Assembly: GCF_001279695.1 (NCBI RefSeq)
Contig: NZ_LGDD01000021.1
Location: 1-18,940 of the forward strand
Direction of reading: 5' to 3'
DNA from: Streptomyces sp. WM6378
Lineage (GTDB): Bacteria; Actinomycetota; Actinomycetes; Streptomycetales; Streptomycetaceae
Length of the DNA stretch: 18,940 nt
Positions 2,234 through 18,940 of this stretch are shown one piece after another. The notes below the pieces were generated by a model. That model made no database searches, was not told where the DNA came from, and saw only the letters and a program-made list of their open reading frames with translations. A program made the translations under genes and the position numbers. Numbering within the stretch: position 1 is the first letter of the stretch; every line of letters begins with the position of its first letter.

Positions 2234-2236
2234 TCG

Positions 2237-2614: not shown

Positions 2615-2660
2615 ACACCGTCATCCGCGGAAGCACTGGACAGCCCAACACGACGGCTCC

Positions 2661-4776: not shown

Positions 4777-5036
4777 ACGACCACGACGATGGCCGCGACC
4801 TGCCGGAGGAACGCCGCGCCGTACTACTCGCCGCCCGCCGCCTCGCCGAGGAAGCGCCCGACGCCTGGTGGCCGCCTCCGCCGACGCGCTCCGTGCCGGA
4901 CTGGCCGTCCGCGCGGACACCCTGCGCCAAGCCGCCCTCGCCGCCTGGCATGCGGGCATCCTGTCAGAAGGTCACAGCCGAGGACTCCGGGGTGTCCTCA
5001 GTCATCGTGCCGCGGTGGATCGAGGCGGACGCCTGA
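4773..5036 (+). pseudogene. Frameshifted alpha-helical hypothetical protein downstream of the MgtC remnant
   Basis: The gene starts by ATGA overlap with the MgtC remnant. It reads MNDHDDGRDLPEERRAVLLA, then ARRLAEEAPDA, after which the frame becomes proline/tryptophan-rich. At about 4862-4868 the neighbouring frame takes over with a sensible helical sequence (LVAASADALRAGLAVRADTL, RQAALAAWHAGILSEG). Restoring one C in GACGCCTGGTG would join the two as DALVAAS. It is therefore a one-base deletion pseudogene, or a sequencing error. The 3' end is unclear: the original frame ends at 5034-5036 and the shifted frame runs on into poor sequence. The family is not recognised. Confidence 0.5.
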
Positions 5037-5134
5037 GCGAACGATCCGCCGCTTCGGATGAGCCTTCGCGCGCGCCTCATGGTCACCCTGGGCCCGGGAC
5101 TCGAGGGCGCGCATGGTCCTTCCGCAGCCCGGCA

Positions 5135-5593
5135 TCAGCTCCGGTCGTGGCGTGCGGCAGCCGCGTCGACGAGGAGGGCTGCGACATCGTGGGACAGGCC
5201 CAGGCGGCTGACGATCCAGGCGGTGTCGTGGCCGTGGAGCGCGAGGACCCAGGCCATGTAGAGGCGGTTGAGGTCCGGGGCCTCAGGCCCGAGCAGCAGG
5301 GGACGGACGGCTTCCATCGGGAAGCCGTCCAGGGTCCGGGCGGTGAACCAGGACGCGTCGACCGCCTCCGATGACACGGAGGGGTGATGGTGAGCCGCGA
5401 TCCGCCGCCGCCGGTGCACCAGGACGGCGGTCATCGCGAGAACGGCGACGGACGCGCCGAGCAGAAAGCCCGTGATCCCGGGGCGGAGTCCGGGCGAGGC
5501 GAGGCGCAGCGCGGTGAGCTCCAGGGCAGCCACGAGGGCCACCACGATCAGGGCGACACCGTCGCGGGTGTGAGGGCGAAGCGTCACTGTCAC
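5135..5593 (-). CDS. Two-TM membrane protein with soluble C-terminal domain, unknown function
   Basis: This 152-residue protein is read on the minus strand from GTG 5593, preceded by AGGAAGGAG at 6-base spacing, which decides the start over an upstream ATG. Two hydrophobic segments (about residues 12-30, VALIVVALVAALELTAL; and 36-55, GITGFLLGASVAVLAMTAVL) are followed by the basic VHRRRRIAAHHH stop-transfer. A cytoplasmic helical domain of about 90 residues then follows (FPMEAVRPLLLGPEAPDLNR, YMAWVLALHGHDTAWIVSRL). The last part looks like a small helix-turn-helix-like fold (SRLGLSHDVAALLVDAAAA). I do not recognise a named family. It converges on the frameshifted gene at 4773-5036. Confidence 0.72.
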   Translation of the reverse strand: MTVTLRPHTRDGVALIVVALVAALELTALRLASPGLRPGITGFLLGASVAVLAMTAVLVHRRRRIAAHHHPSVSSEAVDASWFTARTLDGFPMEAVRPLLLGPEAPDLNRLYMAWVLALHGHDTAWIVSRLGLSHDVAALLVDAAAARHDRS

Positions 5594-6358
5594 GTTGCTC
5601 TCCTTCCTAACTACCACGCGGTGGCGCGGCGCCAGGGCAGCGGCACGGATGATCGAGGAAAGCCAGGCTCGGCCGTCGATCGCCACACCTCAATGCTTGC
5701 ACAAATACGCAATAAGGAGCAATGGAACCCGAGCCGGATCACCACAGGGGGCGTCGCCCCGAGAGGTCCAGTGGGAGGTCAGACGCAGGGCGGGGCAGGG
5801 AGTACGACGAACCTTCCGGGCCCTGCCGTGGTCGCGGCGGGCCACGGGTCCGTTCCTGCGAGGTCGCCGGACTCCGGCGGCGCCGGCTGTGCTGTCAGGT
5901 GCAGGGTCGCTTCGAGCGGGGACCGGGTTGCGCAGCTCGGGTTGGCGCGCGCTCTGGGGCGGGGCGTAGGGTTCGCACCGTTGGTTTCAGGCACCTCGTT
6001 TGGTGAGGCGTCTTCACGGACACACGCCGCTGGTCTCATCCGCGAGTGGCTTCCCCTGGGCATGGGGTGCCCGTGAAGGGCTGTAGCCCGACGAGTTGGG
6101 GTGAGCCGGTCGATCAAGTCCGGGCCCCTGCCGTGATGGCGGAGCGCGGGGCGCTCATGAGCGGGGGAGGCGAGATGGACAGCAGTCCGGGCCATAGTCA
6201 GCCCCACCGTCTGTGTTCCTCGCCGTCTCTTCGCGGTACCAGGTAGCCGCTTCTCCCGTGAGCCCTGTCCGAGTAGCACCCGCTCGGTCTCGGTGGCGTG
6301 AGATGTGTGTCCTGGTGTTGCCCGTGTCCCGCCGTGTCGGGTCCAGGGGGAGTCCACT
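5594..6358. other. Intergenic region upstream of the MgtE-N/Nramp operon
   Basis: About 765 bases have no confident gene. An ATG at 5722 with AAGGAG 2 bases upstream opens a 94-codon Arg/Gly/Ser-rich frame (MEPEPDHHRGRR...) that has only mediocre codon bias and is probably decayed. I looked for an M-box magnesium riboswitch before 6359 and did not find its conserved segments. The stretch 6120-6350 is GC-rich and could fold, but I see nothing diagnostic. Confidence 0.45.
5697..5712 (+). promoter_or_regulatory. Candidate ArsR/SmtB-type operator palindrome
   Basis: TTGCACAAATACGCAA is an imperfect palindrome with an AT-rich centre in very GC-rich surroundings. It resembles the TGAACAAATATTCA half-site pair bound by ArsR/SmtB metal sensors. 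It sits just upstream of an AAGGAG and ATG (5722) whose reading frame no longer encodes a recognisable protein. The regulator is not in the window. The assignment rests on pattern only. Confidence 0.3.
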
Positions 6359-7726
6359 GTGTCTGCCAACAATCTGCTCATGGCCACATCCGCACGTCTG
6401 CGCGACCGCCGGGTCCAGCTCGCACGCCGTGCGACCGCCTCCAAGGCGGTACGCGGCTCTTTGGTTTCCGTGGCAGGGCTGGTCGGCGGCCCTGTCATCA
6501 ATCAGGCCGGGGATGACGTCGGACGCGTGGTCGACGTGGTGGCCCGGCTGTACGGCTCGGACCCTTACCCGCCGGTGACCGGCCTGGTCGTGCGGGTCGG
6601 GCGTCGACGCGCGTTTCTCCAGGTCGACGCCGTCGAGCAGGTCAACGCCGGACGGGTGCGTCTGCGCACCGCGCGGATGGACTTGCGCGAGTACGAGCGT
6701 CGCCCCGGCGAGGTGCTGCTGGCCCGGGATGTGCTCGACCACCAACTGGTGGACGTGGACGGCGTCCAGGTCACCCGCGCTGCGGACTTGTACCTCGCGC
6801 CCCTGGCCGATCGCATCGTCCTGGTGGGCGTGGACGTCTCGCTGCCCACGCTGCTGCGCAGGCTGGGCCCGCGTCGCTGGCAGGTGCGGCCCACCCCCGA
6901 GCGTGTCCTGGACTGGCAGTCGGTGGCCCCGTTCGCCGAACACGCCACCGAAGGACCTGCCGAGGTCCACCTCCGCGGCACGCGCGCCACACTGCACCAG
7001 CTGAGGCCCGCGGACTTGGCCGACGTGCTGGAGGACTTGGGCCGAGCCGAGCGCCAGCAGTTGCTGGCCTGGCTGGAGCCCGGTCACGCAGCCGACGCTC
7101 TGGAGGAGATGGAACCCGGCGAACTGGAGAACCTCCTGCGCGAGGCCGGACCCGTCTACGCCGCTCAGATGCTGGGGGAAATGGAACCCGACGAGGCCGT
7201 CGACGCACTGCGTGACCTCGGCGCGGGCGAGCGCACCAGCCTCCTGGATCAGATGTCCCCGGCCCAGGCGACCGGCCTGCGCGAACTGCTGGCCCGCCCC
7301 GAGGACACCGCGGGCGGCGCCATGACCACGCGGCTCGTCACCGCCGTGCGCGAGCACACGGTCGCCGAGGTCCGCGGTCTGCTCGCCGAACAGGCCGAAC
7401 ACCGCACGGAGATCGACGCCGTGGCTGTCGTGGACACCGACGGCCGGCTCATCGCGGACATCCCGCTGTTCCACCTCACCGTCGCCGAAGACACCTCGAC
7501 CATGGGGGACGTCGTGGACTGGCTCGCCCAGTTCGGAACGCAGGTCGTCGTCGGCCCCGACACCCCCATCGACGAGGTCGCCGACCACCTGCTCGCCTCC
7601 CGCGCCTCCTCCCTCCTGGTCGTCGATGAGAACGAGAGCCCGCTGGGGCGCATGCTCGCCGACGACATCCTCGATGCCCTCCTGCCCGAACGCGGGCGCC
7701 GCCACTTCCGGAGGTTCTTGCAGTGA
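6359..7726 (+). CDS. Cytosolic PRC-barrel / MgtE-N / CBS-pair protein, regulator of the adjacent Nramp transporter
   Basis: A 455-residue protein starts at GTG 6359, with GGGGGAG 6 bases upstream. Residues about 40-200 are two PRC-barrel-like repeats (PVINQAGDDVGRVVDVVARL; LLARDVLDHQLVDVDGVQV). Residues about 210-315 form an MgtE N-terminal superhelix of repeated L-x-x-x-x-P-x-x-x-A-D-x-L-E-x-L/M units (LRPADLADVLEDLG, EPGHAADALEEMEPGEL, EPDEAVDALRDLG). Residues about 316-445 form a CBS pair (EDTAGGAMTTRLVTA; PDTPIDEVADHLLASRASSL). The MgtE membrane domain is absent, so this is the Mg2+-sensing part alone. Its stop overlaps the Nramp start (GTGA), implying stoichiometric production and probable assembly as the cytosolic gate or sensor of that transporter. 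That partnership is inferred. Confidence 0.87.
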   Translation: MSANNLLMATSARLRDRRVQLARRATASKAVRGSLVSVAGLVGGPVINQAGDDVGRVVDVVARLYGSDPYPPVTGLVVRVGRRRAFLQVDAVEQVNAGRVRLRTARMDLREYERRPGEVLLARDVLDHQLVDVDGVQVTRAADLYLAPLADRIVLVGVDVSLPTLLRRLGPRRWQVRPTPERVLDWQSVAPFAEHATEGPAEVHLRGTRATLHQLRPADLADVLEDLGRAERQQLLAWLEPGHAADALEEMEPGELENLLREAGPVYAAQMLGEMEPDEAVDALRDLGAGERTSLLDQMSPAQATGLRELLARPEDTAGGAMTTRLVTAVREHTVAEVRGLLAEQAEHRTEIDAVAVVDTDGRLIADIPLFHLTVAEDTSTMGDVVDWLAQFGTQVVVGPDTPIDEVADHLLASRASSLLVVDENESPLGRMLADDILDALLPERGRRHFRRFLQ

Positions 7727-9024
7727 CCAGCGACGCGGACACCACCACCCCGGACGTCGCTCCGGACGGCACCCGAGGGCCCGAGCCTCGAAAGGGCTGG
7801 CGGCGGATCACTACCGTGGTGGCGATCGCGGGCCCCGGTCTGGTGGCTGCCAACGCCGGCAACGATGCCGCCGGCATCGCCACCTACGCCTCGGCGGGCT
7901 CCCAGTTCATCTACGGCACCCTGTTCTTCATGGTGCTGGTCACGATCGCCCTGGTCATGGTCCAGGAGATGGCCGTCCGGCTCGGCGCCTACACCGGCAA
8001 AGGTCTGGGGGCGCTGATTCGCGAGCAGTTCAGCCTGCGCCTGACCGCACTCGCGGTGTTCTGCCTGCTGCTGGCCAACACCGGCCTGGTCGTCTCCGAA
8101 TTCGCCGGGATCGGCGCTGCCTTCGAACTCCTCGGCGTGCCCAAATGGGCCGTCATCCCCCCAGCCGCGCTGCTGCTGTGGGCGCTGGTGCTCTTCGGTT
8201 CCTACCGATGGGCCGAGCGCATCTTCCTGATCATGTCCCTGGCGTTCTTCGCGTACCCCGTCGCGATGGTCCTCGGCCACCCCGACTGGGGCCAGGTCGG
8301 CTCCCACCTGGCCATCCCGCACATCGAGGGCAGTCAGGCGTTCATCCTGCTCGCCGTTGCGCTGATCGGCACCACCGTCAGCCCCTACATGCAGTTCTAC
8401 GCCGCCGCCGGAGTCGTAGACCGCGGCGCGAAGCCCGAGGACTACAAACTGATCCGTGCCGATGCCGTCCTCGGCGCAGTCTTCGCCTGCCTCATCAGCT
8501 TGACCATCATCATCGCCACTGCCGCTGCCATCGGCGGCACCGGCCCCCTGCAATCCGCCGCCCAGGCCGCCCAAGCGCTCGAACCCGTCGCAGGACAAGG
8601 CGCCGAACTCCTCTTCGCGTTCGGTCTGATCGGTGCTTCCGCACTCGCCGGAGCAGTGGTCCCGCTGTCCGCCAGCTACGCGGTGGGCGAAGCCGCAGGC
8701 GTCGAACGCTCCGTCTCCCGCCGCTTTCGCGACGCGCCCTTGTTCCTGGGCCTGTTCACCGCCCAGATCATCCTCGGCGCCGCCGTCGCCCTCACCCCCG
8801 TCAACGTCATCCAGCTCCTCATCGGCACCCAAGTACTCCAGGGCCTGATCAGCCCCGTCGTCCTGGTCTACCTGCTGGTCCTGACCAACCGCCGGTCCGT
8901 TCTGGGCGCCGCAGCCAACGGCCCCCGCTACCGCATCGCCGCCACCGTCGTCGTTCTCGCCGTCGCGGCCATGTCCACCATCCTCCTCGTCCAGACCATC
9001 CTGAGCTGGATCGGCTGGGCCTGA
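7723..9024 (+). CDS. Nramp-related divalent metal (probably Mg2+) transporter
   Basis: A 433-residue integral membrane protein of the SLC11/Nramp fold with about 11 TM helices starts at GTG 7723 (GGAGG 8 bases upstream, overlapping the previous stop). TM1 reads GPGLVAANAGNDAAGIATYA and aligns with the Nramp GPG...DPGN segment, but DPGN is DAAG: the Asp is kept and the Asn is Gly. In TM6 the A-T-V-M-P-H motif reads TTVSPYMQ, so the soft-metal-binding Met is Ser and the His is Tyr. Loss of the Met is the hallmark of Nramp-related magnesium transporters, and the coupled MgtE-N/CBS gene supports Mg2+ as substrate. Canonical Mn2+ transport is therefore unlikely. The first 25 residues are soluble and acidic. 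Confidence 0.88.
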   Translation: MTSDADTTTPDVAPDGTRGPEPRKGWRRITTVVAIAGPGLVAANAGNDAAGIATYASAGSQFIYGTLFFMVLVTIALVMVQEMAVRLGAYTGKGLGALIREQFSLRLTALAVFCLLLANTGLVVSEFAGIGAAFELLGVPKWAVIPPAALLLWALVLFGSYRWAERIFLIMSLAFFAYPVAMVLGHPDWGQVGSHLAIPHIEGSQAFILLAVALIGTTVSPYMQFYAAAGVVDRGAKPEDYKLIRADAVLGAVFACLISLTIIIATAAAIGGTGPLQSAAQAAQALEPVAGQGAELLFAFGLIGASALAGAVVPLSASYAVGEAAGVERSVSRRFRDAPLFLGLFTAQIILGAAVALTPVNVIQLLIGTQVLQGLISPVVLVYLLVLTNRRSVLGAAANGPRYRIAATVVVLAVAAMSTILLVQTILSWIGWA

Positions 9025-9091
9025 CCCTGCAGGCGCGGTCAGCGCGTTGTGGACGCCGCCGGTTTCTGGCGTCAGGGGTGGCCCGGGCTGC

Positions 9092-9604
9092 GGGGTTCTT
9101 GGTTTCCGCTCCGTGGGCGAAGCCGCCGGCGTCTTCCTCGGCGCGGTGCGGAGCCTGCTTTTCAAGGCGCGGCAGGACGCGGCGGAGGTCTTCGAGGAGG
9201 AGGTCGGCGAGATGGTGGCCGAAGCCATTGCGCACCACGATGCGCAGAGCGGCCAGCTCGGTGCGGTTGGCCGGGAAGGTGTAGGCGGGTACGAGCCAGC
9301 CGCGTTCGTGCACGGCTGCGGAGACGTCGAAGACGGTGAAGTTGTCGACACTGTCGTTGATGCGGAAGGCGAAGACGGGGGTATGGCTTCCGGCGGTGAG
9401 CAGTTCGAAGGGGCCGAGTTTGGCGATGTCGGTGGCGAGGCGGGTAACGACGTCACGGCACGTCTGCTGGATGCGGCGGTAGCCGTCGTAGCCGAGGCAC
9501 AGGAAGTTGTAGTACTGGGCGATGATCTGGGCGCCTGGGCGGGAGAAGCTGAGGGCGAGGGTGGGCATGTCTCCACCGAGGTAGTTGACGTGGAAGACCA
9601 AGCT
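9092..9604 (-). pseudogene. Glutamate decarboxylase, C-terminal remnant
   Basis: The minus-strand frame reads LVFHVNYLGGDMPTLALSFS, RPGAQIIAQYYNFLCLGYDG, YRRIQQTCRDVVTRLATDIA, GWLVPAYTFP and RIVVRNGFGHHLADLLLEDL. This is the last 170 or so residues of a GadB-type PLP-dependent glutamate decarboxylase, which makes GABA and consumes protons in acid resistance. Homology starts abruptly at LVFHVNY, just after where the PLP-binding Lys would be. Upstream residues (GRCGATPTPCPTS) are unrelated, and the frame runs on antisense into the Nramp gene without the normal stop. Both ends are therefore lost and it cannot be active. Confidence 0.82.
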
Positions 9605-9723
9605 CGTCGGGCAGGGCGTCGGTGTCGCGCCGCAGCGACCAGCGATCACGCGAAAACCCTGTCCGGCGGGCGTCTCATCGGCGATGATCACTCTCCATCA
9701 CCGGCAGACGATGGAGACCAGTC

Positions 9724-9924
9724 ATGGACAGCGGCAAGCGGATCACCGGCGCCGTACGCGACAAGCTCACCGATGAACTGATGAAGGCGTACGAGAGCGG
9801 GCAATCCGTCCGCACCATCACCGAGGACGCCGGCCGTTCGTACGGCTTCGTCCACCGCATCCTCACCGAAGCCGGTGTCACCCTGCGCAGCCGGGGCGGC
9901 AACAGCCGCAGCCATGGCGTGTGA
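9724..9924 (+). CDS. Small helix-turn-helix DNA-binding protein
   Basis: A 66-residue basic protein begins MDSGKRITGAVRDKLTDELM, then KAYESGQSVRTITEDAGRSY, GFVHRILTEAGVTLRSRGG. The segment at residues 28-50 (SVRTITEDAGRSYGFVHRIL) is a canonical helix-turn-helix, and the SRGG tail is typical of a short actinobacterial HTH family that resembles resolvase and transposase DNA-binding ends. GGAG lies 7 bases upstream of ATG 9724. It is a single complete domain, so probably a small regulator or nucleoid-associated protein. It is convergent with corA and no target is evident. Confidence 0.8.
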   Translation: MDSGKRITGAVRDKLTDELMKAYESGQSVRTITEDAGRSYGFVHRILTEAGVTLRSRGGNSRSHGV

Positions 9925-9989
9925 CCAACTTTTGAAGCTGCGGGCCCGCCGCGCGAGGGCCAAGGTCCGGGAACGCTTCCCTGCCCTCT

Positions 9990-10002
9990 GCCCCGCCGGG
10001 GC
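9990..10002. terminator. Possible hairpin between convergent HTH and corA genes
   Basis: GCCCC-GCC-GGGGC forms a 5-bp GC stem right beside the corA stop (10006-10008) in the 81-base convergent gap. There is no T-run on either side, as is common in high-GC actinomycetes. It could serve both genes. Confidence 0.35.
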
Positions 10003-10005
10003 GGG

Positions 10006-10983
10006 TCAGATCCAGTCTTTGCGTTTGAAGGCTGCGTACAGAACGACGGACAGGACGACGATGGCAGCGGTCGAGGTGATGAACCCCGCCTGGGTGCTGA
10101 AGCCGGGGTAGGGGACGTTCTGGCCGTAGAAGCCGGTGATGGCGGTGGGCACGGCGATGATGGAGGCCCAGCTGGTGACCTTCTTCATGATGAGGTTCAT
10201 GCGGTTTCCCTGCACCGTCAGGTTGGTCTCCATGATCGAAGCGATCATGTCCCGCAGTGACTCGGTCCACTCGCCGGCCCTCAGCACGTGGTCGTAGACG
10301 TCCTGGTAGTAGGGCAGCAGCGGCTCGGCCACGATGTGCAAGTCCCGGCGCAGAAGGCTGTTGACGACTTCCCGCATGGGCAGGACGACCCGGCGCAGCC
10401 TGGACAGGCTTTTGCGCAGTTCGTATGAGCTGCGTTGGACGGTGTCGGCCTGCTGGCGGCCTTCCTCGAACAGGAGGTCCTCGATGGTTTCGATGCGGTC
10501 GTCGAGGTCCTGCACGGCAGCGAAGTATCCGTCGACGATGTGGTCGAGCAGTCCGTGCAGAAGATAGCCCACGCCGTGCTTGGCCAGGTCCGCGTTGTTG
10601 TCCCAGCGCTCGACGACCTTCTCGATGTCGAAGCGCTCGTCGGGGCGGATGGTGATGAGGGCGCTCTCGGTGACGAAGACCGACAGTTCACTCGTGGACA
10701 ACTGCCCGGTGTCCGGGTCCGTGCAGACGGCGTAGGCACTGAGGAAGGCGTGGGTGCGGTAGCGGTCGAGCTTGGGACGCTGGTGCTCGTGACGGGCGTC
10801 CTCCATCGCCAGTTCATGCAGTCCGAACTCTTCGCTGATCATGGCGAAGTCCGCAGGGGCCGGTGCACACAGGTCGAGCCACACCGCCACCCCCGATTCC
10901 GACACATATTCTGATATGTCCTCGGCAGGAAAGTCTTCGAGCGTCAATATGCCGTTGCGGTAAAGCCGCGTCCGTGTAGCCAT
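10006..10983 (-). CDS. corA: CorA-family Mg2+/divalent cation channel with GQN selectivity motif
   Basis: A 325-residue protein is read from ATG at 10983 (weak AGGG upstream). It has an N-terminal alpha/beta cytosolic domain (residues about 20-120, VAVWLDLCAPAPADFAMI, HELAMEDARHEHQRPKLDRY) and a long helical stalk (about 150-270, DRIETIEDLLFEEGRQ, SLSRLRRVVLPMREVVNSLL). Two C-terminal TM helices (about 275-318) follow, then the basic tail KRKDWI. CorA pentamers conduct Mg2+ passively through TM1, gated by Mg2+ bound to the cytosolic domain. The periplasmic Y-G-M-N signature at the end of TM1 here reads ITGFYGQNVPYPGF, with Gln for Met. The fold is otherwise intact, so the protein is probably functional, though ion preference could differ. 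It lies 1 kb from the Nramp/MgtE-N pair. Confidence 0.9.
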   Translation of the reverse strand: MATRTRLYRNGILTLEDFPAEDISEYVSESGVAVWLDLCAPAPADFAMISEEFGLHELAMEDARHEHQRPKLDRYRTHAFLSAYAVCTDPDTGQLSTSELSVFVTESALITIRPDERFDIEKVVERWDNNADLAKHGVGYLLHGLLDHIVDGYFAAVQDLDDRIETIEDLLFEEGRQQADTVQRSSYELRKSLSRLRRVVLPMREVVNSLLRRDLHIVAEPLLPYYQDVYDHVLRAGEWTESLRDMIASIMETNLTVQGNRMNLIMKKVTSWASIIAVPTAITGFYGQNVPYPGFSTQAGFITSTAAIVVLSVVLYAAFKRKDWI

Positions 10984-11370
10984 GAGCCGCAACCCTAGGC
11001 CGACGGCGCACCGAGCCTGAGAGCGGGTTCCGCACCGGGGAGGACGGCACAACAGTTCGAGGCATCGGCGTCGGTTCACGGCTGGTCGAGAGTGATCGAG
11101 TTGATGGGCCCCAGGTCCGCCCAGAACCCGACGGCGCATTGATGCCGGAGCCGGCGCAGCCGTGTTCGGCGTCCCTGGTGCCAGACGGGCGTCGCTTCGC
11201 TGTCCGGCGGTGGCCAAGGTCGCCAGGACGCGAAATGAGGCCCGCGCCCTGCCAGGAGCCGTCGCCGCCCGTGCGTGCCTTGGGCTGTTCGGGAGGTAGG
11301 GGCGGGACTAGGCTGTCGGGCACAGCCCCAGCCCCCGGCAGCGTGAGGATCCGCTCCGAGGAGGCGCACG
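10984..11370. other. Divergent intergenic region between corA and the STAS gene
   Basis: About 390 bases between two divergently transcribed genes must hold both promoters. I see no clear -35/-10 pair and no conserved RNA element. GAGGAGG at 11358-11364 is the ribosome binding site of the STAS gene. Confidence 0.4.
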
Positions 11371-11874
11371 GTGTCCCGAGGTGCCAGAACTTCTCTCATC
11401 CCCGCAGACGCACTCCGCTCGCCCCCTGAGGGGGAGGGCGTCCGTGCGTCCGTACGAAGCCGCCGCTCCTTGTCTCCGCTCTCCCTGCCGATGCCGGACG
11501 GACAGCCCGCGCCCACCGGTGTTCCTGCGGACCAGGTGGTCGTCGTGGTCAGCGGAAGTCTTGGCCCGGCCAATGTTCCAGTACTGCGCGAGCGCCTGCT
11601 GCGCGTATCCCACGGCCCTGGAATCCGGTTGGTCCTCGACCTGTCGGGCGTCACCTCCTGCGACACCCTGGGCCTCGGGTTGATCGTCGCCACCGCCCGC
11701 CGGGCCCGATCCTTCGGCGGCAGCCTGCGCCTTGTCGCCCCGAGCCCCGCCGTTGCCAGGGCCCTCGGCGCCAGCGGGCTGATCCGGCTCCTCCAGGTCT
11801 TTCCCGCTCTCGACACGCCGGCCAGGACTTCGGCCACCGAGGCGACCAGCCCGGATCTCCGCGAAGCGGCCTAG
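11371..11874 (+). CDS. STAS-domain protein (anti-sigma factor antagonist-like)
   Basis: A 167-residue protein starts at GTG 11371, with GAGGAGG at 6-base spacing, giving a basic Ser/Arg-rich N-terminal extension of about 45 residues before the domain. Residues about 53-150 form a STAS fold: VVVVVSGSLGPANVPVLRER, then RLVLDLSGVTSCDTLGLGLI, then LRLVAPSPAVARALGASGLI. Such proteins bind anti-sigma kinases of the SpoIIAB/RsbW type and free sigma factors when unphosphorylated. The SpoIIAA-like D-S-S-G phosphorylation motif reads D-T-L-G, so the phosphorylated Ser is Leu, with a Thr one residue earlier. No kinase or sigma gene is adjacent, so its partners are encoded elsewhere. Confidence 0.82.
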   Translation: MSRGARTSLIPADALRSPPEGEGVRASVRSRRSLSPLSLPMPDGQPAPTGVPADQVVVVVSGSLGPANVPVLRERLLRVSHGPGIRLVLDLSGVTSCDTLGLGLIVATARRARSFGGSLRLVAPSPAVARALGASGLIRLLQVFPALDTPARTSATEATSPDLREAA

Positions 11875-11903
11875 ACACTCAGCCAACCCGTGGAGGCGGT
11901 CAA

Positions 11904-12020
11904 CTGCCCTTCGCTCGCATCCTCTTCGTGGCCCTGGTCGGCTTTGGCTTCCTCCACCCCGTCCTGTGGGCGCCCGCGGTTGTAATGATCTTCGGCTTCG
12001 TCCGTCAGGAACGGAGATAG
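11904..12020 (+). CDS. Tiny hydrophobic membrane peptide with apparent CTG start
   Basis: The frame reads (L/M)PFARILFVALVGFGFLHP, then VLWAPAVVMIFGFVRQERR and a TAG at 12018-12020. This is a 38-residue, two-segment hydrophobic peptide with a positively charged end. GGAGG (11893-11897) lies 6 bases before CTG at 11904, exactly where a start codon should be. Either CTG is used or an ATG has mutated. Small hydrophobic proteins of this kind are frequent in streptomycetes, but I cannot name a family. Confidence 0.4.
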   Translation: MPFARILFVALVGFGFLHPVLWAPAVVMIFGFVRQERR

Positions 12021-12112
12021 TCGATGGGTAGCGATGCTTCTGGGACAAGGACGGTTTCTGCGGGCAACCGCCCACAGGCCGCTGTGCAGGGTGTTGTCGT
12101 CTTGGAGGGGTT

Positions 12113-12259
12113 GTGGAACTGACCGACTGGCTGCTCGCGCCCGGCGAGCGAGGCAATCCGGCGACTCGCCTGGAGATCCGTCGGCCCGGCGGGGTGGCCT
12201 GGTCGATGGGGAACGAGGTGCGCCCCTGGTCCACGGGGCGGTGCACTTCGCTGAACTAC
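12113..12259 (+). pseudogene. Phospholipase D-like protein, 5' part (interrupted by mobile element)
   Basis: GTG 12113 (GGAGG 4 bases upstream) begins VELTDWLLAPGERGNPATRL, EIRRPGGVAWSMGNEVRP, the N-terminus of a streptomycete phospholipase D-like protein. After CGCCCC at 12221-12226 the frame must slip by one base (one C missing from a run of Cs) to continue LVHGAVHFAEL. At 12259 the gene is cut by the 3.3-kb element. Its continuation begins at 15602, where the duplicated GAACTAC is followed by TCAAGGCC, giving AELLKAIQSQ in frame. See 15602-17052 for the rest. Confidence 0.82.
12253..12259 (+). repeat. Target-site duplication, left copy (GAACTAC)
   Basis: GAACTAC immediately precedes the left terminal inverted repeat. 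The same 7 bases follow the right terminal repeat at 15602-15608 in the same orientation. Deleting one copy plus the element restores the codons GAA-CTA-CTC-AAG of the interrupted gene. Confidence 0.85.
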
Positions 12260-12303
12260 GGGCTAGGGACTGGTAGGGCCGCATGTTGAGGTGTCGCGTA
12301 TTC
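12260..12303 (+). repeat. Left terminal inverted repeat of the mobile element
   Basis: It starts GGGCTAGGGACTGGTAGG and ends TGTCGCGTATTC. It pairs with 15558-15601 at 39 of 44 positions. The similarity to the internal copy continues to 12345, where the minus strand spells RFPPGDHAR-stop, the last codons of a recombinase-like gene. Confidence 0.88.
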
Positions 12304-12383
12304 CTCGACGAGGCGGGACGAACGTCACCGTGCGTGATCGCCGGGAGGGAACCGTCCGTGCGGGGATCCGACCCCGGCCCACC

Positions 12384-12500
12384 AGGAACGCCTCGCTCGT
12401 AGATCTGGCCGCCGAGCTTCCCGCGCTCATTTTCAGGCGTCTGCTCGGCCTCTGCGAGCAGACCGCAGCGTGCTGGATGGCGAGAGCGGCGGCGACGCAG
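12384..12500 (+). pseudogene. Recombinase-like C-terminal remnant (plus strand)
   Basis: The frame reads RNASLVDLAAELPALIFRRL, LGLCEQTAACWMARAA. Streptomycete tyrosine-recombinase-like proteins typically carry an ALAAELPAPVLADLLG-x-H-x-x-TA-x-x-W segment near the C-terminus, and this fits with decay (the ADLLGIH region is altered). About 40 residues remain, with no start and no catalytic residues visible. Its direction is opposite to the other recombinase remnants in the element. Confidence 0.5.
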
Positions 12501-12599
12501 CCCGCAATGCCGCCCACCGGGCTCGCGGGGAGAACCGCCTCTGATATATCCCCCGGTTCTGCCGGGTAAGGGGCGGGGCACAGGGCGTGGGCAGGGGCC

Positions 12600-13262
12600 C
12601 TACAACAGGGCGCCGCCGGACACCTCGAGGCGCTGGGCGGTGACCCATCGCGGGTCCTCGGAGGCGAGCGCGGCAATCGCGTCGCCGATCTCCTGCGCTT
12701 CGCCGACGCGGCCGAGCGCGGTCTGCGCGCCCAAGTCCTCGCGCATCTGCGCGTCGTCCCGCATGGCACCGCCGTTGAAGTCGGTGGCTGTCGGCCCCGG
12801 CACGATGGCGTTGACGCGGATCGTGCGCGCCCCCAGCTCCACGGCCAGGGTCCGGCTGAGGGCCTCGACCGCCGCCTTCGAGGCCGAGTAGACCGAGGTG
12901 CCGGCACTGGTGTGGCGGCTGAGGGAGGAGGAGACGTTGATGATCCGCCCCCCGTCGGCCAGCACGGGCGCAAGCGCCTGGGTGAGGAAGAACGTGCCGC
13001 GCACGTTGGTGTCCATTACCGCGTCGAAGTCGTCGACCGTGACCGCTTCCAGCGGTCCGAAGAGCCCGATTCCGGCATTGTTGACCAGGACATCCAGCCG
13101 GGTCGCGTCCCAGCGTTCCAGTTGCGCAGCCAGGTGGGAGACGAAGGCGGGAAAGGAGGCCACATCGCTGATGTCCAGCCGCAGCGCGGCAGCCGTGGCG
13201 CCGGTTTCCTGAACGTTCCTGACCGTCTCCTCGGCCTCCTGCGCGTCGCCGCGGTAGGTCAC
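12600..13262 (-). pseudogene. Short-chain dehydrogenase/reductase lacking its N-terminal cofactor motif
   Basis: The 220-codon minus-strand frame has the SDR core: LDVLVNNAGIG (NNAG), GGRIINVSSSLSRHTSAGTS (catalytic Ser region), VYSASKAAVEALSRTLAVEL (YxxxK), IRVNAIVPGPTATDF, and the normal C-terminus RWVTAQRLEVSGGALL. The first recognisable residues are LRVIVTYRGDAQEAEE. A TGA stop lies just upstream of A-W-L-R, and the TGxxxGIG dinucleotide-binding loop with the first 30 or so residues is missing. It could be translated from GTG 13262 but would not bind NAD(P) normally. Usual length is about 250 residues. It is cargo of the mobile element. Confidence 0.82.
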
Positions 13263-13403
13263 GATGACGCGCAGCCAGGCTCAGCGCACTTGGCCGAGGT
13301 GGATGCGGATGATGCCGTCCGCGTACGGCTCGGCCAGCCGGCGCTGTCCGGTGCCGTCACACAAGACCGGAATGCGGGCCGGCTTCTGCTGGTTATCGCC
13401 GAC

Positions 13404-14325
13404 ATGACTACAGGAGTAGCGCTCAACGCGACCGACGCCGACAACCAGATCGATGCCTCGGTGCGGCTCGCACACGAGGCCGCGGCTGCTGGGCTGCGGT
13501 CGGCCTGGTTCGGACAGACCTTCGGCGCGGACTCACCCCAGCTGGCGGCGGTCGTCGGGCGAGAAGTACCCGGTCTGCACGTCGGCACGTCGGCGATCCC
13601 TGTTTTCGGCCGCCACCCGCTGCTGGTCTCCAGCCAGGCCCAGACCGCCCAGGCGGCCACCCACGGCCGCTACCACCTCGGACTTGCGCTCGGCACCAAA
13701 CTCCTGACCGAGGCGGGCTTCGGCATCCCCTACGAACGGCCCATCGCGCGTCTGCGTGAATTCCTCACCGCATTGCGGCAGTTGACCGAGACCGGCACCG
13801 CCGACTTCCACGGCGAACTGCTCACCGCGACGACACCGATCCCCGCCCGCGTGCCGGGCGCCGAAAGCGGCGTGCCCCTGCTCGTCGCCGCGATGGGCCC
13901 CCAGGCGCTGCGTGCCAGCGGTGAATTGGCCGATGGGATCCTGCCCTATCTGGCCGGGCCGCGCGCACTGAGTGAGCACATCGTTCCGGCAGTCACCGCA
14001 GCGGCAGAGGCCGCCGGCCGGCCCGCGCCCCGGATCGTCGCCCTGGTGCACGGCGTGGTCACCGACGACGTCGACTCCGTACGGGAAGGCCGCCGAGCAG
14101 CTCGCGTTCTACGAGCAGTTCCCGTCCTACGCACGAGTCATCGGACTCTCCGGCGGCCAGCGGGCCGTCGATGTGGCTGTGATCGGCGACGAGCGGACGG
14201 TCGCCGCCGAGGTGCGCCGTTACCGAGATGCCGGAGCGACGGAGGTGGTGTTCTCGGGGACGGAAATGGCCGGAGAGTCCGACCGGCGCCGTACCTGGGC
14301 ACTCCTCGGAGAGCTGGCCGACTGA
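13404..14325 (+). pseudogene. F420-dependent LLM-class oxidoreductase, frameshifted
   Basis: From ATG 13404 the frame gives a luciferase-like TIM-barrel protein: LAHEAAAAGLRSAWFGQTFG, VPGLHVGTSAIPVFGRHPLL, QAATHGRYHLGLALG, VPLLVAAMGPQALRASGELA and DGILPYLAGPRALSEHI. This matches the mycobacterial/actinobacterial F420-dependent LLM subgroup. At about 14083-14092 (DDVDSVREG) coding shifts to another frame, which continues KAAEQLAFYEQFPSYARVIG, then VAVIGDERTVAAEVRRYRDA and GATEVVFSGTE, ending at TGA 14323-14325. Together they make a near full-length protein of about 306 residues. The break is one insertion/deletion or a sequencing error. No ribosome binding site is evident before the ATG. Confidence 0.82.
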
Positions 14326-14440
14326 GCCCCGGCGGGCGGTTGTACGCTCTGGTGGCCGGACATCCTGCAGATTCCGCAGTAATGACAAGCAGCGTGCTGA
14401 CTCCCTGCCAGCTGCTGTGTCTCATGCTGCGGAACCGCAG

Positions 14441-14602
14441 AACAGATGGCTTGCCTCGATCGCCAACTACGTCCTGTGGCCGCGGATGTTGCTCGCCGAC
14501 TGGAGCCCCGCACCTGCCGACATCGACCACGCCGTCGACGAGGCGGTCACGACGATGCTCGCCCGCTACGGCCGCAGCGCCAACGACCGGCAGCAGCCCT
14601 GA
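14441..14602 (+). pseudogene. TetR-family regulator, C-terminal remnant
   Basis: The frame reads NRWLASIANYVLWPRMLLAD, then WSPAPADIDHAVDEAVTTML and ARYGRSA before TGA at 14600-14602. This resembles the last 50 or so residues of the ligand-binding domain of streptomycete TetR/AcrR regulators that sit next to SDR genes. The N-terminal HTH is absent and upstream sequence in this frame is not protein-like. It is cut just before the internal terminal-repeat copy. Confidence 0.5.
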
Positions 14603-14624
14603 GATCTCCCGGGTGTGAGTAGTT

Positions 14625-14710
14625 GGCCCTCGGACTGATAGGCGCGCATGTTGAGGTGTTGCGTATTCCTCGACGAGGCGGGACGGATGTCACCGTGTGT
14701 GGTCGCCGGG
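14625..14710 (+). repeat. Internal third copy of the terminal repeat
   Basis: Positions 14632-14710 match 12267-12345 at 71 of 79 bases, in the same orientation as the left end. The copy overlaps the last codons (APGDHTR-stop, minus strand) of the recombinase-like gene. On its outer side stands GAGTAGTT, the reverse complement of the AACTACTC that borders the right end of the element. Confidence 0.85.
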
Positions 14711-15058
14711 GGCGTATCGGCTCCAGGTTCCTCCGGCTTCGGTGACCAGGCGGGTGACTGTCTTGTCGTGGTAGCCGAGCGCCTTGGCGACGACGGGAGC
14801 CGGTGCCTGGAGCACGAGTTGGCGGATCGCGGAGATCCTGTCGCGTTGCGGCGGGACGCCGATCTCCCGCAGGTGGACTTGGAGGCTGACCGGGTTCATC
14901 GGTTGTCCGGGCTGGCGGCCGGGGAAGAGCCACTGTGAGCTTCTGCTGCTGACGTAGGGCAGGTGCTGGCGGGACTGAATGTAGGCCCGCACGAGGTCAG
15001 CGACGGGCTCCGGGAGCGGGGACGGCGGATCTCCCAGCCGGACGGCGACGGCCGGCAC
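14690..15058 (-). pseudogene. Tyrosine-recombinase-like protein, C-terminal fragment
   Basis: The minus-strand frame reads AVRLGDPPSPLPEPVADLVR, AYIQSRQHLPYVSSRSSQWL, FPGRQPGQPMNPVSLQVHLR, AIRQLVLQAPAPVVAKALGY, HDKTVTRLVTEAGGTWSRYA, PGDHTR-stop. This is the C-terminal half of a widespread actinomycete family related to site-specific tyrosine recombinases: LFPGR...G.P, then a G-Y-H/x-T helix, then a final Tyr. The classical R...H-x-x-R...Y set is not obvious in this fragment. The 5' part is absent: a GTG at 15058 could start it, but the family protein is several hundred residues longer. Its stop lies inside the terminal-repeat copy, as expected for an element's own recombination gene. Confidence 0.6.
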
Positions 15059-15129
15059 GCCGCTCTGCCGCGACTGCGCGGGCTCTCGGGAATCAGCGCG
15101 ACGAGCTTTCGGGGCCGGCCACTCAGACC

Positions 15130-15489
15130 ATGGAAGCCCCGATCGTCACCCGGAGCGAATACACCCTGGTCGGCATCGACGACGGTTACCTCAACCTCAT
15201 GGATGACTCAGGCGAGGTGAGGGAAGACATCAAGTTCCCGGAAGACGGACTGGGTAGCGAGCTCCAGCGAGCGTACGAGGCCGGCACAGAATTCCAGGTC
15301 GCCGTACTCACCGCCACGGGGGACGACGGCCGTCGTCAGCTTCAGGGAAGCCGCGAAGTAGTTCGCTGCCCCAACACGGCCCGCCCCCGGACGATCAGCC
15401 CACCCCACCGACGGCAAGTCGGCCCTGGCAGCGCCACCGATGGTGCGCGTACCGCTCCGCGTGCATCTGCCCCACTGAGGAAACCGTGA
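15130..15489 (+). CDS. eIF5A-like OB-fold domain protein (N-terminally truncated)
   Basis: From ATG 15130 the protein reads EAPIVTRSEYTLVGIDDGYL, then LMDDSGEVREDIKFPEDG, LGSELQRAYEAGTEFQVAVL and TATGDDG. This closely follows the C-terminal OB domain of eukaryotic/archaeal initiation factor 5A (P-x-V-x-R-x-x-Y-x-L-x-x-I-x-DGYLSL-x-x-x-SGEVREDL-x-x-P-E, G-x-L-G-x-E-I, VLSAMGEE). The preceding in-frame residues SGPATQTMEAP still match the domain linker (PSTHNM-x-x-P), so homology extends upstream of the ATG and the SH3-like domain with the hypusine Lys loop is missing. The last 45 residues (Arg/Pro-rich) are unrelated. No ribosome binding site is seen. Bacteria normally use EF-P, so this is probably a transferred fragment carried by the element. 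Function is unknown. Confidence 0.72.
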   Translation: MEAPIVTRSEYTLVGIDDGYLNLMDDSGEVREDIKFPEDGLGSELQRAYEAGTEFQVAVLTATGDDGRRQLQGSREVVRCPNTARPRTISPPHRRQVGPGSATDGARTAPRASAPLRKP

Positions 15490-15557
15490 CGTGGACGACG
15501 TCCAGGCTGTTCCTGATACCGGCTGCGGTCAGTGATCAGTTTCCGCGCCTGCCGACC

Positions 15558-15601
15558 GAATACGCGACACTGGAACATGCGGGCCTACCAGTCCCAAGCC
15601 C
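15558..15601 (-). repeat. Right terminal inverted repeat of the mobile element
   Basis: Read on the minus strand it begins GGGCTTGGGACTGGTAGG and ends TGTCGCGTATTC. It is directly followed on the plus strand by the duplicated GAACTAC. Of the five differences from the left end, three are in a cluster in the middle. Confidence 0.88.
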
Positions 15602-15608
15602 GAACTAC
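15602..15608 (+). repeat. Target-site duplication, right copy (GAACTAC)
   Basis: This is the second copy of the 7-bp sequence flanking the element. It is continuous with TCAAGGCC, which resumes the phospholipase D-like gene in frame. Confidence 0.85.
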
Positions 15609-17052
15609 TCAAGGCCATCCAGTCCCAACAGTCGGGCGATTTACTGCTGTTCACCGACTGGCGGGGCGATCCCGACGAGAGGCTGGGCGGCCTGGGCAGC
15701 GAGATTGGCCCGGTGTTGTGCGAGGCCGCCGAACGCGGCGTCAACGTCAAGGGCCTCATCTGGCGATCCCACCTGGACCGCTTCCAGTTCAGCGAAAGCG
15801 AGAACCGCCACTTCGGCGACGAGATCCAGACCGCGGGCGGCGAGTGCCTGCTGGACATGCGGGTGCGCCCCGGCGACTCGCACCATCAGAAGTACGTCGT
15901 CCTGCGCCACCCCGGCCGGCCCGAACACGACGTTGCCTTCGTTGGTGGGATCGACCTGTGCCACAGCCGCCGTGATGACAGCACTCACCGGGGCGACCCG
16001 CTCAGCCAGCTCTTCGCCGCCGTCTACGGGCCCCATCCACCCTGGCACGACATCCAGTTGGCCATCCGCGGCCCGGCCGTCGGTGACGCCGAAGCCACCT
16101 TCCGGGAACGCTGGGAGGACCCAGCGCCGCTGAGTCGCAGCCCGTTCGGCCGCCTGCGCTCCCTCCTGCACTATGAGGACACGAAGGCAGATACATTGCC
16201 GCCGCAACTGCCCGACCCGGCCCCCTGCGGCACCCACACCGTGCAACTGCTGCGCACCTACCCCGCCCGCATCCACGGGTACGACTTCGCCCCGCACGGG
16301 GAACGCAGCATCGCCCGCAGCTACCAGAAGGCGCTACGACGGGCCCGGTCACTGATCTATCTGGAAGACCAGTACCTGTGATCCGCGCAAGTGCTGACGT
16401 GCTTCGCGAAGGCCCTGTCCGCCCACCCCGCACTGCACATGATCGCCGTCATCCCGTCGGCTCCCAGCGACGACGGCCGCCTCTCCCTGCCGATGAACCA
16501 CCTGGGCCGCATCCAGGCCCTCGACCTGCTGCACCGCGCAGGCGGCGACCGGGTCGCCGTCTACAGCCTGGAAAACCATGCAGGAACCCCCGTGTACGTC
16601 CACGCGAAGGTGTGCGTCGTCGACGATGTATGGGCCTCCGTCGGCTCGGACAACATCAACCGGCGCTCCTGGACGCACGATTCGGAACTGAGCTGCGCGT
16701 TCCTGGATGAGACGCAGGATTCCCGCGAGCCACGTGATTCCGGCGGCCTCGGCGACGGCGCCCGTACCGGTGCCCGCGATCTGCGCCTCCAACTGGCCCG
16801 TGAACACCTGGACCACAGCGACCCGACCGCACTGTGCGATCCGGTGACGGCCTTCCGCGCCTTCGCCGAGTCGTCCGCCGCACTGGACGCCTGGCACAAC
16901 ACCGGACGCGCGGGCCCCGGCCCCCCGGCCGCCTGCGCACGTACCGCACCCCACATCTGTCACGCACCACCACGGCCCTGGTCACCCCCCTCTACCGGCT
17001 CCTCGCCGACCCCGACGGCCGCCCCCTGGCCCTGCGACGTCGCGACGCCTAG
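15602..17052 (+). pseudogene. Phospholipase D-like protein, 3' part (interrupted, with further mutations)
   Basis: The reading frame resumes ELLKAIQSQQSGDLLLFTDW, RGDPDERLGG, VKGLIWRSHLDRFQFSESEN. It has two HKD-type regions: SHHQKYVVLRHPG with VAFVGGIDLCHSRRDD at about 15880-15980 (HxK kept, the Asp spacing atypical), and VYVHAKVCVVDDVWASVGSD at about 16590-16650 (HxKx4D intact). Such proteins hydrolyse or transfer phosphodiester bonds. YLEDQYL is followed by TGA at 16379-16381, where the family has Trp (TGG), so this is a nonsense mutation. Near 16908-16925 another frame takes over (RGPRPPGRLRTYRTPHLSRT, PLYRLLADPDGRPLALRRRD) to the TAG at 17050-17052. Together with the 5' frameshift and the insertion, the gene is dead. 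Intact length would have been about 530 residues. Confidence 0.87.
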
Positions 17053-17103
17053 TGAACGAAGGTGCCGATGGACTCCGTACCGGCAGAAGAGTCTGTCCCC
17101 TCA

Positions 17104-17130
17104 CACACGGTTGCCGCGGCAACCGGTGTG
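17104..17130. promoter_or_regulatory. Near-perfect palindrome upstream of the glycosyltransferase gene
   Basis: CACAC is followed by the perfect 16-bp palindrome GGTTGCCGCGGCAACC (17109-17124), then G and GTGTG. The symmetric 27-base unit lies 107 bases before the PIG-V-like start and 52 bases after the dead gene. It has no T-run. It could be an operator for a dimeric regulator or a transcription terminator. Confidence 0.45.
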
Positions 17131-17236
17131 CGGTCTCCCGCACCGGTTCCGGTCCGAGACCAGCCGGTGGTAAGTAGAGTCGCACCAACACTCTTGCACG
17201 GCCCCCGGCCGGCGGCCGCTCTTGTGGGAGGGGGCG

Positions 17237-18439
17237 GTGCGCGTGTGCGCTGCCGGGCCTGTCTCGTTTTCTCCGCTCCCCGTCGCAGCCGGCCCGCCTC
17301 CTGCGGCCCGTCTGCGGGCCGCGTTGCGTCGGGCGGCTCCGGCTCTGGTGGTGTTCGGGGCCGCCCGGGCGACCGGGCTGCTCCTGATGTCCCTGTGGGC
17401 CTGGCAGGGCGGTAGGCATCCCCGCAGCGTCCTCGCGCTCGAATGGGACGGCCGGTGGTACTACCGGATTGTCGAGTGGGGCTACCACCTGCCTGCGGAC
17501 TCCGTTCCGTTACCCGGATTCGCCTCGGAGAAGCTCGCCTTCTTCCCCCTGTACCCAGGGCTGATCAGAGTTGTTGACGCGGTACTTCCGATCGGCGACC
17601 TCAACGCGGCCCTCTTCATCTCCTGGGTGTCTGCGGGGGTGGCCGCCTGGGGGATCTACGCGATCGGGGAGCTGCTCTACGGCCGCCGGACCGGCATTGC
17701 CCTGGTCCTGCTGTGGGGGCTGCTGCCCCACGCGATCGTGCTGACGATGGCGTACGCCGAGCCGCTCATGACAGCCTTCGCCGCCTGGGCCCTGTACGCG
17801 GTGCTCACCCGCCGCTGGCTCGCCGCCGGGACTCTGGCCGCGCTGGCCGGGCTGGCCCGGCCCAACGGCATCGCGGTCGCTGCGGCGGTGTCCGTTGCTG
17901 TCACCGCGATTGCCTGGCGGCGCCACCGCGCGCACGAGCCCCAGGACGGGCATGCCTGGATCGGTGCGGCGCTCGCCCCGCTGGGCTGGCTCGGGTACAT
18001 CGCATGGGTCGGCGTCCAGACCGGCGACCCGCTGGGCTACTTCGCCATCGAGAGCCGCTGGGGCTCCCGTTTCGACTTCGGCCAATACGCCGCGCACTAC
18101 ATCGCGGGCCTGGTCACCGGCCGCAACCGACTCGCTGTCTACGCCGCCGTCGCGATCGTCGGTGTATCGCTACTGCTGCTCGTCCTCGCCGTACTGGACC
18201 GCGTCCCGCTGCCCTTGCTCGTCTATACGGCCGTCCTGACCCTCATCGCCCTCGGCGGCACCGACTACTTCCAGTCCAAGCCACGCTTCCTGCTTCCCGC
18301 CTTCCCTCTCCTCATCCCCTTGGCCATCGCCCTGTCGCGTGCTCGACCTCGCACCGCCTGCCTGGCCGTCGCAGCCCTGGCCAGCATCTCGTTCTTCTAC
18401 GGGACATACCTGCTACTGGTCTCCCCACTGGCACCGTAG
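17237..18439 (+). CDS. PIG-V-like integral membrane mannosyltransferase (GT-C fold)
   Basis: A 400-residue protein starts at GTG 17237 (GGAGG 5 bases upstream; GTG 17243 is an alternative). It has about 9-10 TM helices. The first lumenal/external loop has the acidic signature LALEWDGRWYYRIVEWGYH, where W-D-x-x-Y/W-Y is the GT-C catalytic region. SEKLAFFPLYPGLIRV and MAYAEPL follow, all typical of the PIG-V/GPI mannosyltransferase 2-related proteins of actinomycetes. These use polyprenyl-phosphate sugar donors to glycosylate lipids or proteins on the outer face of the membrane. The later signature TDYFQSKPRFLLPAFPLL (family K-P-R-F-L-L-P-A-F-P) is intact. The gene appears complete and is unrelated to the broken gene upstream. 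Confidence 0.85.
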   Translation: MRVCAAGPVSFSPLPVAAGPPPAARLRAALRRAAPALVVFGAARATGLLLMSLWAWQGGRHPRSVLALEWDGRWYYRIVEWGYHLPADSVPLPGFASEKLAFFPLYPGLIRVVDAVLPIGDLNAALFISWVSAGVAAWGIYAIGELLYGRRTGIALVLLWGLLPHAIVLTMAYAEPLMTAFAAWALYAVLTRRWLAAGTLAALAGLARPNGIAVAAAVSVAVTAIAWRRHRAHEPQDGHAWIGAALAPLGWLGYIAWVGVQTGDPLGYFAIESRWGSRFDFGQYAAHYIAGLVTGRNRLAVYAAVAIVGVSLLLLVLAVLDRVPLPLLVYTAVLTLIALGGTDYFQSKPRFLLPAFPLLIPLAIALSRARPRTACLAVAALASISFFYGTYLLLVSPLAP

Positions 18440-18940
18440 GACCGCGCCGCTCAGCTCCCAGCCCGAATGCCGTCACCAACCGGATTCGACAGTTGTGGGG
18501 CTGAGTTGCGATTTCGCGCGGCGCCCTGGCCCACCAGGTCCTCGGCCTCGGCAACTACCGGCCCGGGCGGCGAGGAAAGAGGCGTGGAAGGTTGTACGCA
18601 CAGACGTGAGGCCTCCACGATGAGCTCCCTGTCAACTGTGAGGATGGGGCACCCAGTTCACGTGTAAGAAACATCTGCCGGTAGCCGAACATTACGCACA
18701 GTGAACCGTTCCGGGTTCGGTAGGGACCAAACACTCAGTGAGCGCTGGAGATGAACGGGGTTGGTCCCTTCAGGCAGTCAACTGTGCTCTCCCGAACCTG
18801 GTGACAGCTCTGGTGGATTGCTATGCAGGGGAGGGTCCGTTTTAGAGGCCCTAACAGAAGTGGTTGTTGACGTGACTGTCGGCTTGGCTGTTCGTTGGTG
18901 TGGGTGTGGGGAAGAGACAGTCGCGGCCGTGGATCGTGTC
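18440..18940. other. Intergenic region with an inverted repeat; no confident gene
   Basis: About 500 bases to the right edge. From 18660 GC content falls noticeably. AGGGACCAA (18722-18730) and TTGGTCCCT (18761-18769) form a perfect 9-bp inverted repeat around a 30-base loop. On the minus strand a frame enters from beyond the edge and stops at 18853-18855 (DTIHGRDCLFPTP..., NNHFC). It may be the tail of a neighbouring gene or insertion sequence, but I do not recognise it. Confidence 0.4.

Follow-up and report, generated by a model that had tools for sequence, protein, structure and literature searches.

Contig NZ_LGDD01000021.1 of Streptomyces sp. WM6378 (assembly GCF_001279695.1), of which we analyzed positions 1 to 18,940 (18,940 nucleotides, hereafter the window), carries a phospholipase D-like (PLD) gene that is split by a 3.3-kb insertion at positions 12259-15602. 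The insertion ends in inverted copies of a sequence that we attribute jointly to a Tn3-family transposon and to a second element encoding a tyrosine recombinase. The 5' fragment of the PLD-like gene (12113-12258, plus strand) matches the N-terminal part of uninterrupted orthologs, and its frame changes before the junction. The 3' fragment (15603-17173, plus strand) has an in-frame TGA at 16379-16381 and a PLDc_2 domain in 16391-17173 (6.5e-7), so that the gene is damaged on both sides beyond the insertion itself. A search with the downstream fragment detected the gene in 26 of 198 other genomes (27 of 199 when the genome of the window is included). All printed homologs, namely the loci containing the motif used by our script, are continuous across the junction (...LVHGAxYFAELL...DLLLFTDW..., with 'FAELL' at the site). 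Each fragment was aligned to the intact relatives separately, rather than as part of a joined gene. Since the orthologs are uninterrupted, 12259-15602 is the insertion site. The initial annotation of this DNA had described the PLD-like gene as split by a transposon-like element that has terminal inverted repeats and is flanked by a duplication, and had proposed to look for empty sites in orthologs; these sites bear out the insertion.

The two ends of the insertion are inverted copies with 40 of 46 identical nucleotides, while 200,000 random pairs of 46-mers from the window reach at most 29 of 46. Positions 12259-12303 and 15558-15602 are 89% complementary over 45 nucleotides, and the heptamer GAACTAC is present at both flanks. 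The end occurs in the window in three copies, not two, the third being a direct copy at 14625-14669.

The repeated end accompanies a three-gene element

In intact loci, the 46-nucleotide end follows three genes in the order int (372 amino acids), HTH (helix-turn-helix, 108 amino acids) and rec (488-490 amino acids); in some lineages a NUDIX gene lies between rec and the end. Canonical tyrosine recombinases carry the motif R..H-x-x-R..H..Y. The Int protein matches PF00589 (1.7e-17), and its residues R199, H307, R310, H333 and Y342 are invariant in 11 sequences, which identifies it as a canonical tyrosine recombinase and a PF00589 member. The HTH protein matches HTH_26. Rec (P0121, 490 amino acids) scores 18.2 bits against PF00589, below the cut-off of 27.1. 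R445, Y481 and five CxxC motifs are invariant in 12 Rec sequences, and Ser or Ala lies three residues before R445, the position where His is usual. A search of the PDB sequences with Rec returned no recombinase match. We regard Rec as a putative recombinase relative, composed of a zinc finger and a tyrosine-recombinase-like domain. The insertion in the window retains the C-terminal approximately 120 amino acids of rec (14693-15052, minus strand), with 91% identity to residues 369-488 of P0121. The corresponding open reading frame (ORF; 14693-15058, minus strand) has 486 relatives at E <= 0.001, and the close ones are mostly named Streptomyces.

A complete copy of this second element (~3555 bp) lies on the S. 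goshikiensis plasmid NZ_CP108578.1 (L256:13417-16971), where its left end (LE) and right end (RE) are dissimilar. Searching with the flanks of this copy, we found the same DNA without the element, and with a single break point, in NZ_CP115937.1 and NZ_CP011665.1. The empty site reads ...GGTCC GGGTCTGAG/TAGTTGCGGTACAGGATGTAGCGCTGAG..., with the slash at the break point, and the target can also be written ...GGGTCTGAG/TAGTTGCGG.... In this one comparison of a filled with an empty site, junction and target share only 1-2 bp, which does not establish a 6-bp footprint copied from the donor flank as in the Tn554/SE type.

The second element probably targets the repeats of Tn3-type transposons

When a profile built from the sequence outside LE was run over 20 loci, it detected 38-bp repeats in pairs flanking a Tn3-type transposase in 8 of them, the remaining 12 having one repeat, an invaded repeat or none found. 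The 20 loci were taken with wide flanks around relatives identified by tblastn, with a query transposase that matches PF01526 (1.1e-133). In the 8 complete loci the repeats are identical at 35-38 of 38 nucleotides within each pair, the ends start with CGG, and a 5-bp duplication lies directly outside them: GCGCC in L232, CGCGA in L233, ATGAA in L235, CCTCC in L238, AGGTC in L241, TACGT in L242, TTGTC in L243 and GTAAC in L245. To place the tip, we required CGG at both ends and identical 5-mers just outside; the agreement of the 5-mers aided the placement, yet they match in 8 out of 8 loci. Their transposase, paired 38-bp repeats and 5-bp duplication identify all eight as members of the Tn3 family.

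Since the target profile recovers paired repeats around Tn3-type transposases, the target of the second element matches a Tn3 inverted repeat. The element sits within this repeat after about base 9-10, with the tip of the repeat outside RE and the inner half outside LE. A reading of the sequence outside LE as the end of an insertion sequence was rejected, as it corresponds to this inner half. We examined 13 elements, which are part of the listed Int-HTH-Rec loci; for L067 and L069 the two sides could not both be typed, and in 9 of the 11 typed by eye (L068, L070, L071, L073, L074, L087, L147, L234 and L256) the two junctions are halves of the same repeat type. A flank search for the empty site of L087 returned mostly partial matches and no empty site. 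Two further assignments, RE as the genuine inverted repeat of a Tn3 transposon and the Int-HTH-Rec trio as a Tn3 resolvase, were rejected because the transposase loci have different 38-bp repeats and the second element has its own empty site.

The ends of the insertion are hybrids

When the window is compared with these loci, the outer nine nucleotides at each end of the insertion correspond to a Tn3-type tip. The left tip CGGGCTAGG (12259-12267, plus strand) agrees with L245 at 8 of 9 nucleotides and the right tip CGGGCTTGG (15594-15602, minus strand) at 9 of 9. Fused to them are two RE arms of the tyrosine-recombinase element, at 12268-12304 on the plus strand (one of 120 RE matches) and at 15557-15593 on the minus strand. 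By this comparison, the 46-nucleotide ends are hybrids of a Tn3-family repeat tip (outer 9 nucleotides) and the right arm of the second element (inner ~37 nucleotides). Complete inverted repeats of ~38 bp are not present: bases 11-38 of the window ends match 16 Tn3 repeats at no more than 10 of 28 positions, near the background of shuffled sequences (7.4, standard deviation 2.3), while the repeats match each other at 18.3 on average. The inverted ends reported in the initial annotation are real, but its 44-bp 'terminal repeat' consists of a Tn3 tip and the arm of another element. The family, which had been left open, can be assigned to Tn3, with an arm of the tyrosine-recombinase element at both ends.

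The flanking heptamer GAACTAC had been taken for a 7-bp target duplication. The same letters are best read as a 5-bp duplication AACTA (12254-12258 and 15603-15607, both on the plus strand), in which the extra C/G pair belongs to the transposon tip. The C before GGGC is assigned to the end because C precedes GG in 70 of the 83 canonical RE copies (the 120 matches after exclusion of those that differ in length or duplicate a flank already counted) and the eight complete Tn3 ends start with CGG. In the same 83 copies, the five bases before this C favor G-A-N-T-C and are more A/T-rich than the outer flank, a symmetric preference that would be the expected trace of a target duplication. We consider a 7-bp duplication less likely, since 5 bp suits all eight complete relatives and the symmetry of the flank profile extends over five bases, not seven.

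The sequences adjacent to the two arms differ. On the left, positions 12305-12354 (minus strand) are a remnant around the 3' end of rec and form part of an 88-nucleotide match (86%) to the internal copy, which includes the 3' end of rec. The inner sequence of the right arm is like that of the lineage with the NUDIX gene (78% over 86-90 nucleotides to L033 and L170). Because the right arm resembles the NUDIX lineage while the left one carries a rec tail, the ends were probably invaded twice, by elements of different lineages.

The right end is widespread and mostly solitary

We detected the hybrid end in 64 of 295 genomes by blastn and in 71 of 392 genomes of the genus by a pattern allowing up to 3 mismatches, the genome of the window being counted in both cases; the reversed control pattern had no match among the matches listed. 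All 70 plasmid records that match the end are from Streptomyces. In 107 sequences chosen for carrying the end or the genes, RE has 120 matches in 103 sequences. Convergent inverted pairs are limited to the window, L082, L135, L084 (where the second end is truncated) and L134 (where one end has 25 nucleotides and the two are 54 bp apart), and the other neighboring pairs are direct (10) or divergent (2). None of the 107 sequences shows an autonomous transposase gene between two RE ends. Tn3 transposase sequence is found in 16 of them, although several were fetched for their genes and L074 and L179 overlap. The absence of paired terminal repeats elsewhere had been proposed as a refutation of the transposon; with an end that is widespread but mostly solitary, this check would be misleading. 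We rejected a simple transposon with RE as terminal inverted repeat at both ends for the same reason. In our reading, a solitary end may mark the place where the second element entered one end of a Tn3 transposon, the other end of which looks different.

Origin of the insertion in the window

We propose, with a probability of about 70%, that the insertion is a decayed relic of a Tn3-family transposon, both ends of which were later occupied by the tyrosine-recombinase element. A transposon of the Streptomyces type (38-bp repeats starting with CGG and a transposase of ~1045 amino acids) would have inserted into the PLD-like gene by DDE transposition, duplicating AACTA. The Int/HTH/Rec element of ~3.5 kb would then have integrated site-specifically in both inverted repeats, after about base 9, leaving on each side a Tn3 tip joined to its right arm. 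The transposase, the inner half of each repeat and almost the whole second element would then have been lost through deletions, and what remains would be damaged cargo (an SDR oxidoreductase, an F420-dependent LLM-class oxidoreductase and the tail of a TetR-type regulator) and scraps of the recombinase. The sequences themselves show the insertion site, the tips and arms, the rec remnant and, in a plasmid, a complete element placed precisely in a Tn3-type repeat that has empty counterparts; from their arrangement we infer the order of these events, the roles of the enzymes and the immobility of the relic.

Several results weigh against this proposal. No Tn3 transposase (PF01526) is detected in the window by tblastn, and for this reason we class the insertion as a Tn3 relic and not as a functional member of the family. 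The initial annotation had likewise recognized no transposase inside; this holds for the Tn3 enzyme, but a remnant of a recombination gene is present at 14693-15052. The profile finds the inner half of neither repeat in the window, the pattern finds none in its genome, and LE of the second element is not found in the window. With transposase, inner repeat halves and LE all missing from the window, the double invasion is a reconstruction. The sole PF01526 gene of the genome (G000:C324) has one TGA, and no such repeat is seen in its 4.2-kb locus or, by pattern, in the genome. Outside the window, L121 and L251 have mismatched halves (2 of the 11 typed), and the matches of L070 and L071 rest on diverged inner halves. 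The empty plasmid repeat of L254/L255 is single: the profile finds no partner repeat, and the stretch has no annotated transposase of this family. A partner end with a matching 5-bp duplication was not found by eye in L074/L179, L121, L147, L195 or L234. Finally, a unit with two RE ends occurs in three genomes with different left flanks (L082:6491-9311, L084:5172-7537 and L135:6033-8841; 94% identity over 2819 nucleotides between L082 and L135), which hints that such units may move, be it by TnpA, Int or recombination. Their cargo, named from ORF translations, comprises a quinone-oxidoreductase-like gene and an AraC-type regulator.

These units also speak for an alternative in which the stretch between two RE ends transposed as a whole, as a non-autonomous Tn3 derivative similar to TIMEs or TIME-COMPs, with the RE arms acting as inverted repeats and a transposase provided in trans. 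Such derivatives and composites have been described (PMC4133298, PMC13367494), and the 5-bp duplication and the intact tips at both ends of the window insertion would fit them. However, bases 11-38 of the window ends agree with Tn3 repeats only near background, in S. goshikiensis the arm is brought in by the second element while the empty repeat lacks it, and the similarity shared by the three genomes continues for 49 bp beyond the second RE before it breaks off at roughly the same position. We consider this explanation unlikely. It appears still more doubtful that Int, HTH and Rec moved the whole 3.3 kb site-specifically by way of its inverted ends, with GAACTAC as the 7-bp crossover. The identical heptamers and the recombinase remnant inside the insertion would be in line with it, but the complete element has dissimilar ends and only 1-2 bp in common with its target, the printed PLD orthologs have no Tn3 repeat at the site, and the flanks of the 83 RE copies display the symmetric 5-bp preference with no common 7-mer. 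Least probable of all, and hardly credible to us, is the reading, close to that of the initial annotation, that the insertion is an undescribed DDE transposon unrelated to Tn3, with inverted repeats of 44-46 bp and a 7-bp duplication. Long inverted ends, a duplication and a window without transposase are what such an element could leave behind, but the end is mostly solitary (71 of 392 genomes, with few convergent pairs in the 107 sequences), the tips are those of Tn3 and the eight complete relatives favor a duplication of 5 bp.

Comparison with described elements

Of the described systems that we compared, Tn4556 of Streptomyces fradiae is the closest Streptomyces Tn3 transposon. It has 38-bp repeats, the left one starting with C, 5-bp duplications, a PF01526 transposase and a PF00589 resolvase (PMC6403206), and resembles the family discussed here in its repeats, duplications and transposase; in the window, by contrast, the transposase is missing and each repeat is reduced to its first ~9 bp. 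This comparison was made by description, not by repeat sequence. TIMEs and TIME-COMPs are described as Tn3-type ends that enclose DNA lacking a transposase, with duplications of 5 or 6 bp (PMC4133298, PMC13367494). The window insertion shares this organization, including the 5-bp duplication, but each of its ends joins a truncated Tn3 repeat to the arm of a different element, so that TnpA probably does not recognize them.

As for the second element, a parallel in lifestyle is provided by IS5075 and IS4321, which occupy Tn21-type repeats (PMC8269217) and are described as IS1111/IS110-type insertion sequences that encode a DEDD transposase and are guided to their targets by RNA. The target is likewise a Tn3-family repeat, but the annotated genes inside the second element are int, HTH and rec, with no DEDD transposase of the IS110/IS1111 type among them; a tyrosine recombinase, an HTH protein and a zinc-finger recombinase relative take its place. 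SEs, GInts, RITs and Tn554 are reported to combine several recombinase genes, mostly with a small accessory protein, with site-specific integration (PMC10214605, PMC5385486). The second element is similarly a multi-gene tyrosine-recombinase element, and differs from them in its Int-HTH-Rec order, the five CxxC motifs of Rec, the dissimilar ends and the Tn3-repeat target. To judge by the descriptions consulted, none of the systems compared here pairs a trio of this kind with a target in Tn3 repeats. In the open-access literature covered by our search, with subscription papers lying outside it, we found no report of a tyrosine-recombinase element that targets Tn3 repeats.

On balance, we think it probable that a widespread and apparently undescribed three-gene tyrosine-recombinase element of Streptomyces (Int, HTH and zinc-finger Rec) integrates into the terminal repeats of Tn3-family transposons, caps their ends and can occupy both of them, thereby immobilizing and reshuffling these transposons and their cargo. 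If true, homing of a tyrosine-recombinase element to the well-studied Tn3 ends would mean that the niche of IS5075 and IS4321 has been filled a second time and independently. It would also account for the solitary '46-bp repeats' of Streptomyces genomes, which can be mistaken for transposon inverted repeats. The filled and empty sites are available for direct tests of target recognition.

Interior of the insertion and related sequences

The cargo consists of three damaged genes and an ORF with an eIF-5A-like OB fold. The SDR oxidoreductase lacks its N-terminus (12603-13262, minus strand; PF13561, 1.1e-51 from profile position 26), and positions 12549-13274 are 92% identical to plasmid DNA of Streptomyces sp. 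Alt2. The F420-dependent LLM-class oxidoreductase occupies two frames (13353-14330, plus strand; TIGR03564, 1.8e-86 and 4.8e-17), in a segment 82.7% identical to a S. chartreusis plasmid. It is followed by the C-terminal remnant of the TetR-type regulator (14438-14602, plus strand; PF14246, 1.8e-9), and positions 14458-14609 are again 92% identical to the Alt2 plasmid. Because the SDR and TetR parts match genes that adjoin each other on the Alt2 plasmid, where they are annotated as whole genes, the LLM segment seems to have replaced the DNA between them.

Where the Alt2-like DNA stops (14609), the sequence CGGGTGTGAGTAGTT (14610-14624, plus strand), read by eye, resembles the start of another Tn3-type inverted repeat. 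It is followed by the internal RE arm (14625-14669, plus strand), which is in direct orientation relative to the left end (86% over 88 nucleotides, E 1.8e-12). Since a tip at the end of the Alt2-like DNA precedes an internal arm and the rec remnant, a further event, of the Tn3 type or of the second element, seems to be nested inside the insertion. At the internal tip, the 9 nucleotides TGAGTAGTT (14616-14624) are the reverse complement of the right flank AACTACTCA (15603-15611), a match that we leave as chance, unexplained or due to an older event.

The bacterial ORF at 15130-15489 (plus strand) encodes an eIF-5A-like OB fold (PF01287, 3.1e-20), for which the transposon history does not account. 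Elsewhere in the genome of the window, a distant rec-like fragment with 34% identity lies at G000:C320:12288-12968 (L036). At L121:15765-16012, on plasmid pSGE, an RE end lies immediately next to the C-terminal portion of a different rec gene, as though it had landed in a copy that was already there; we did not find the front part of that older copy in the retrieved sequence. On the Alt2 plasmid, a pair of Tn3-type inverted repeats spanning 0.9 kb encloses a single hypothetical gene (L257:5430-6324); no matching 5-bp duplication is evident by eye, and the pair could be a TIME-like element.

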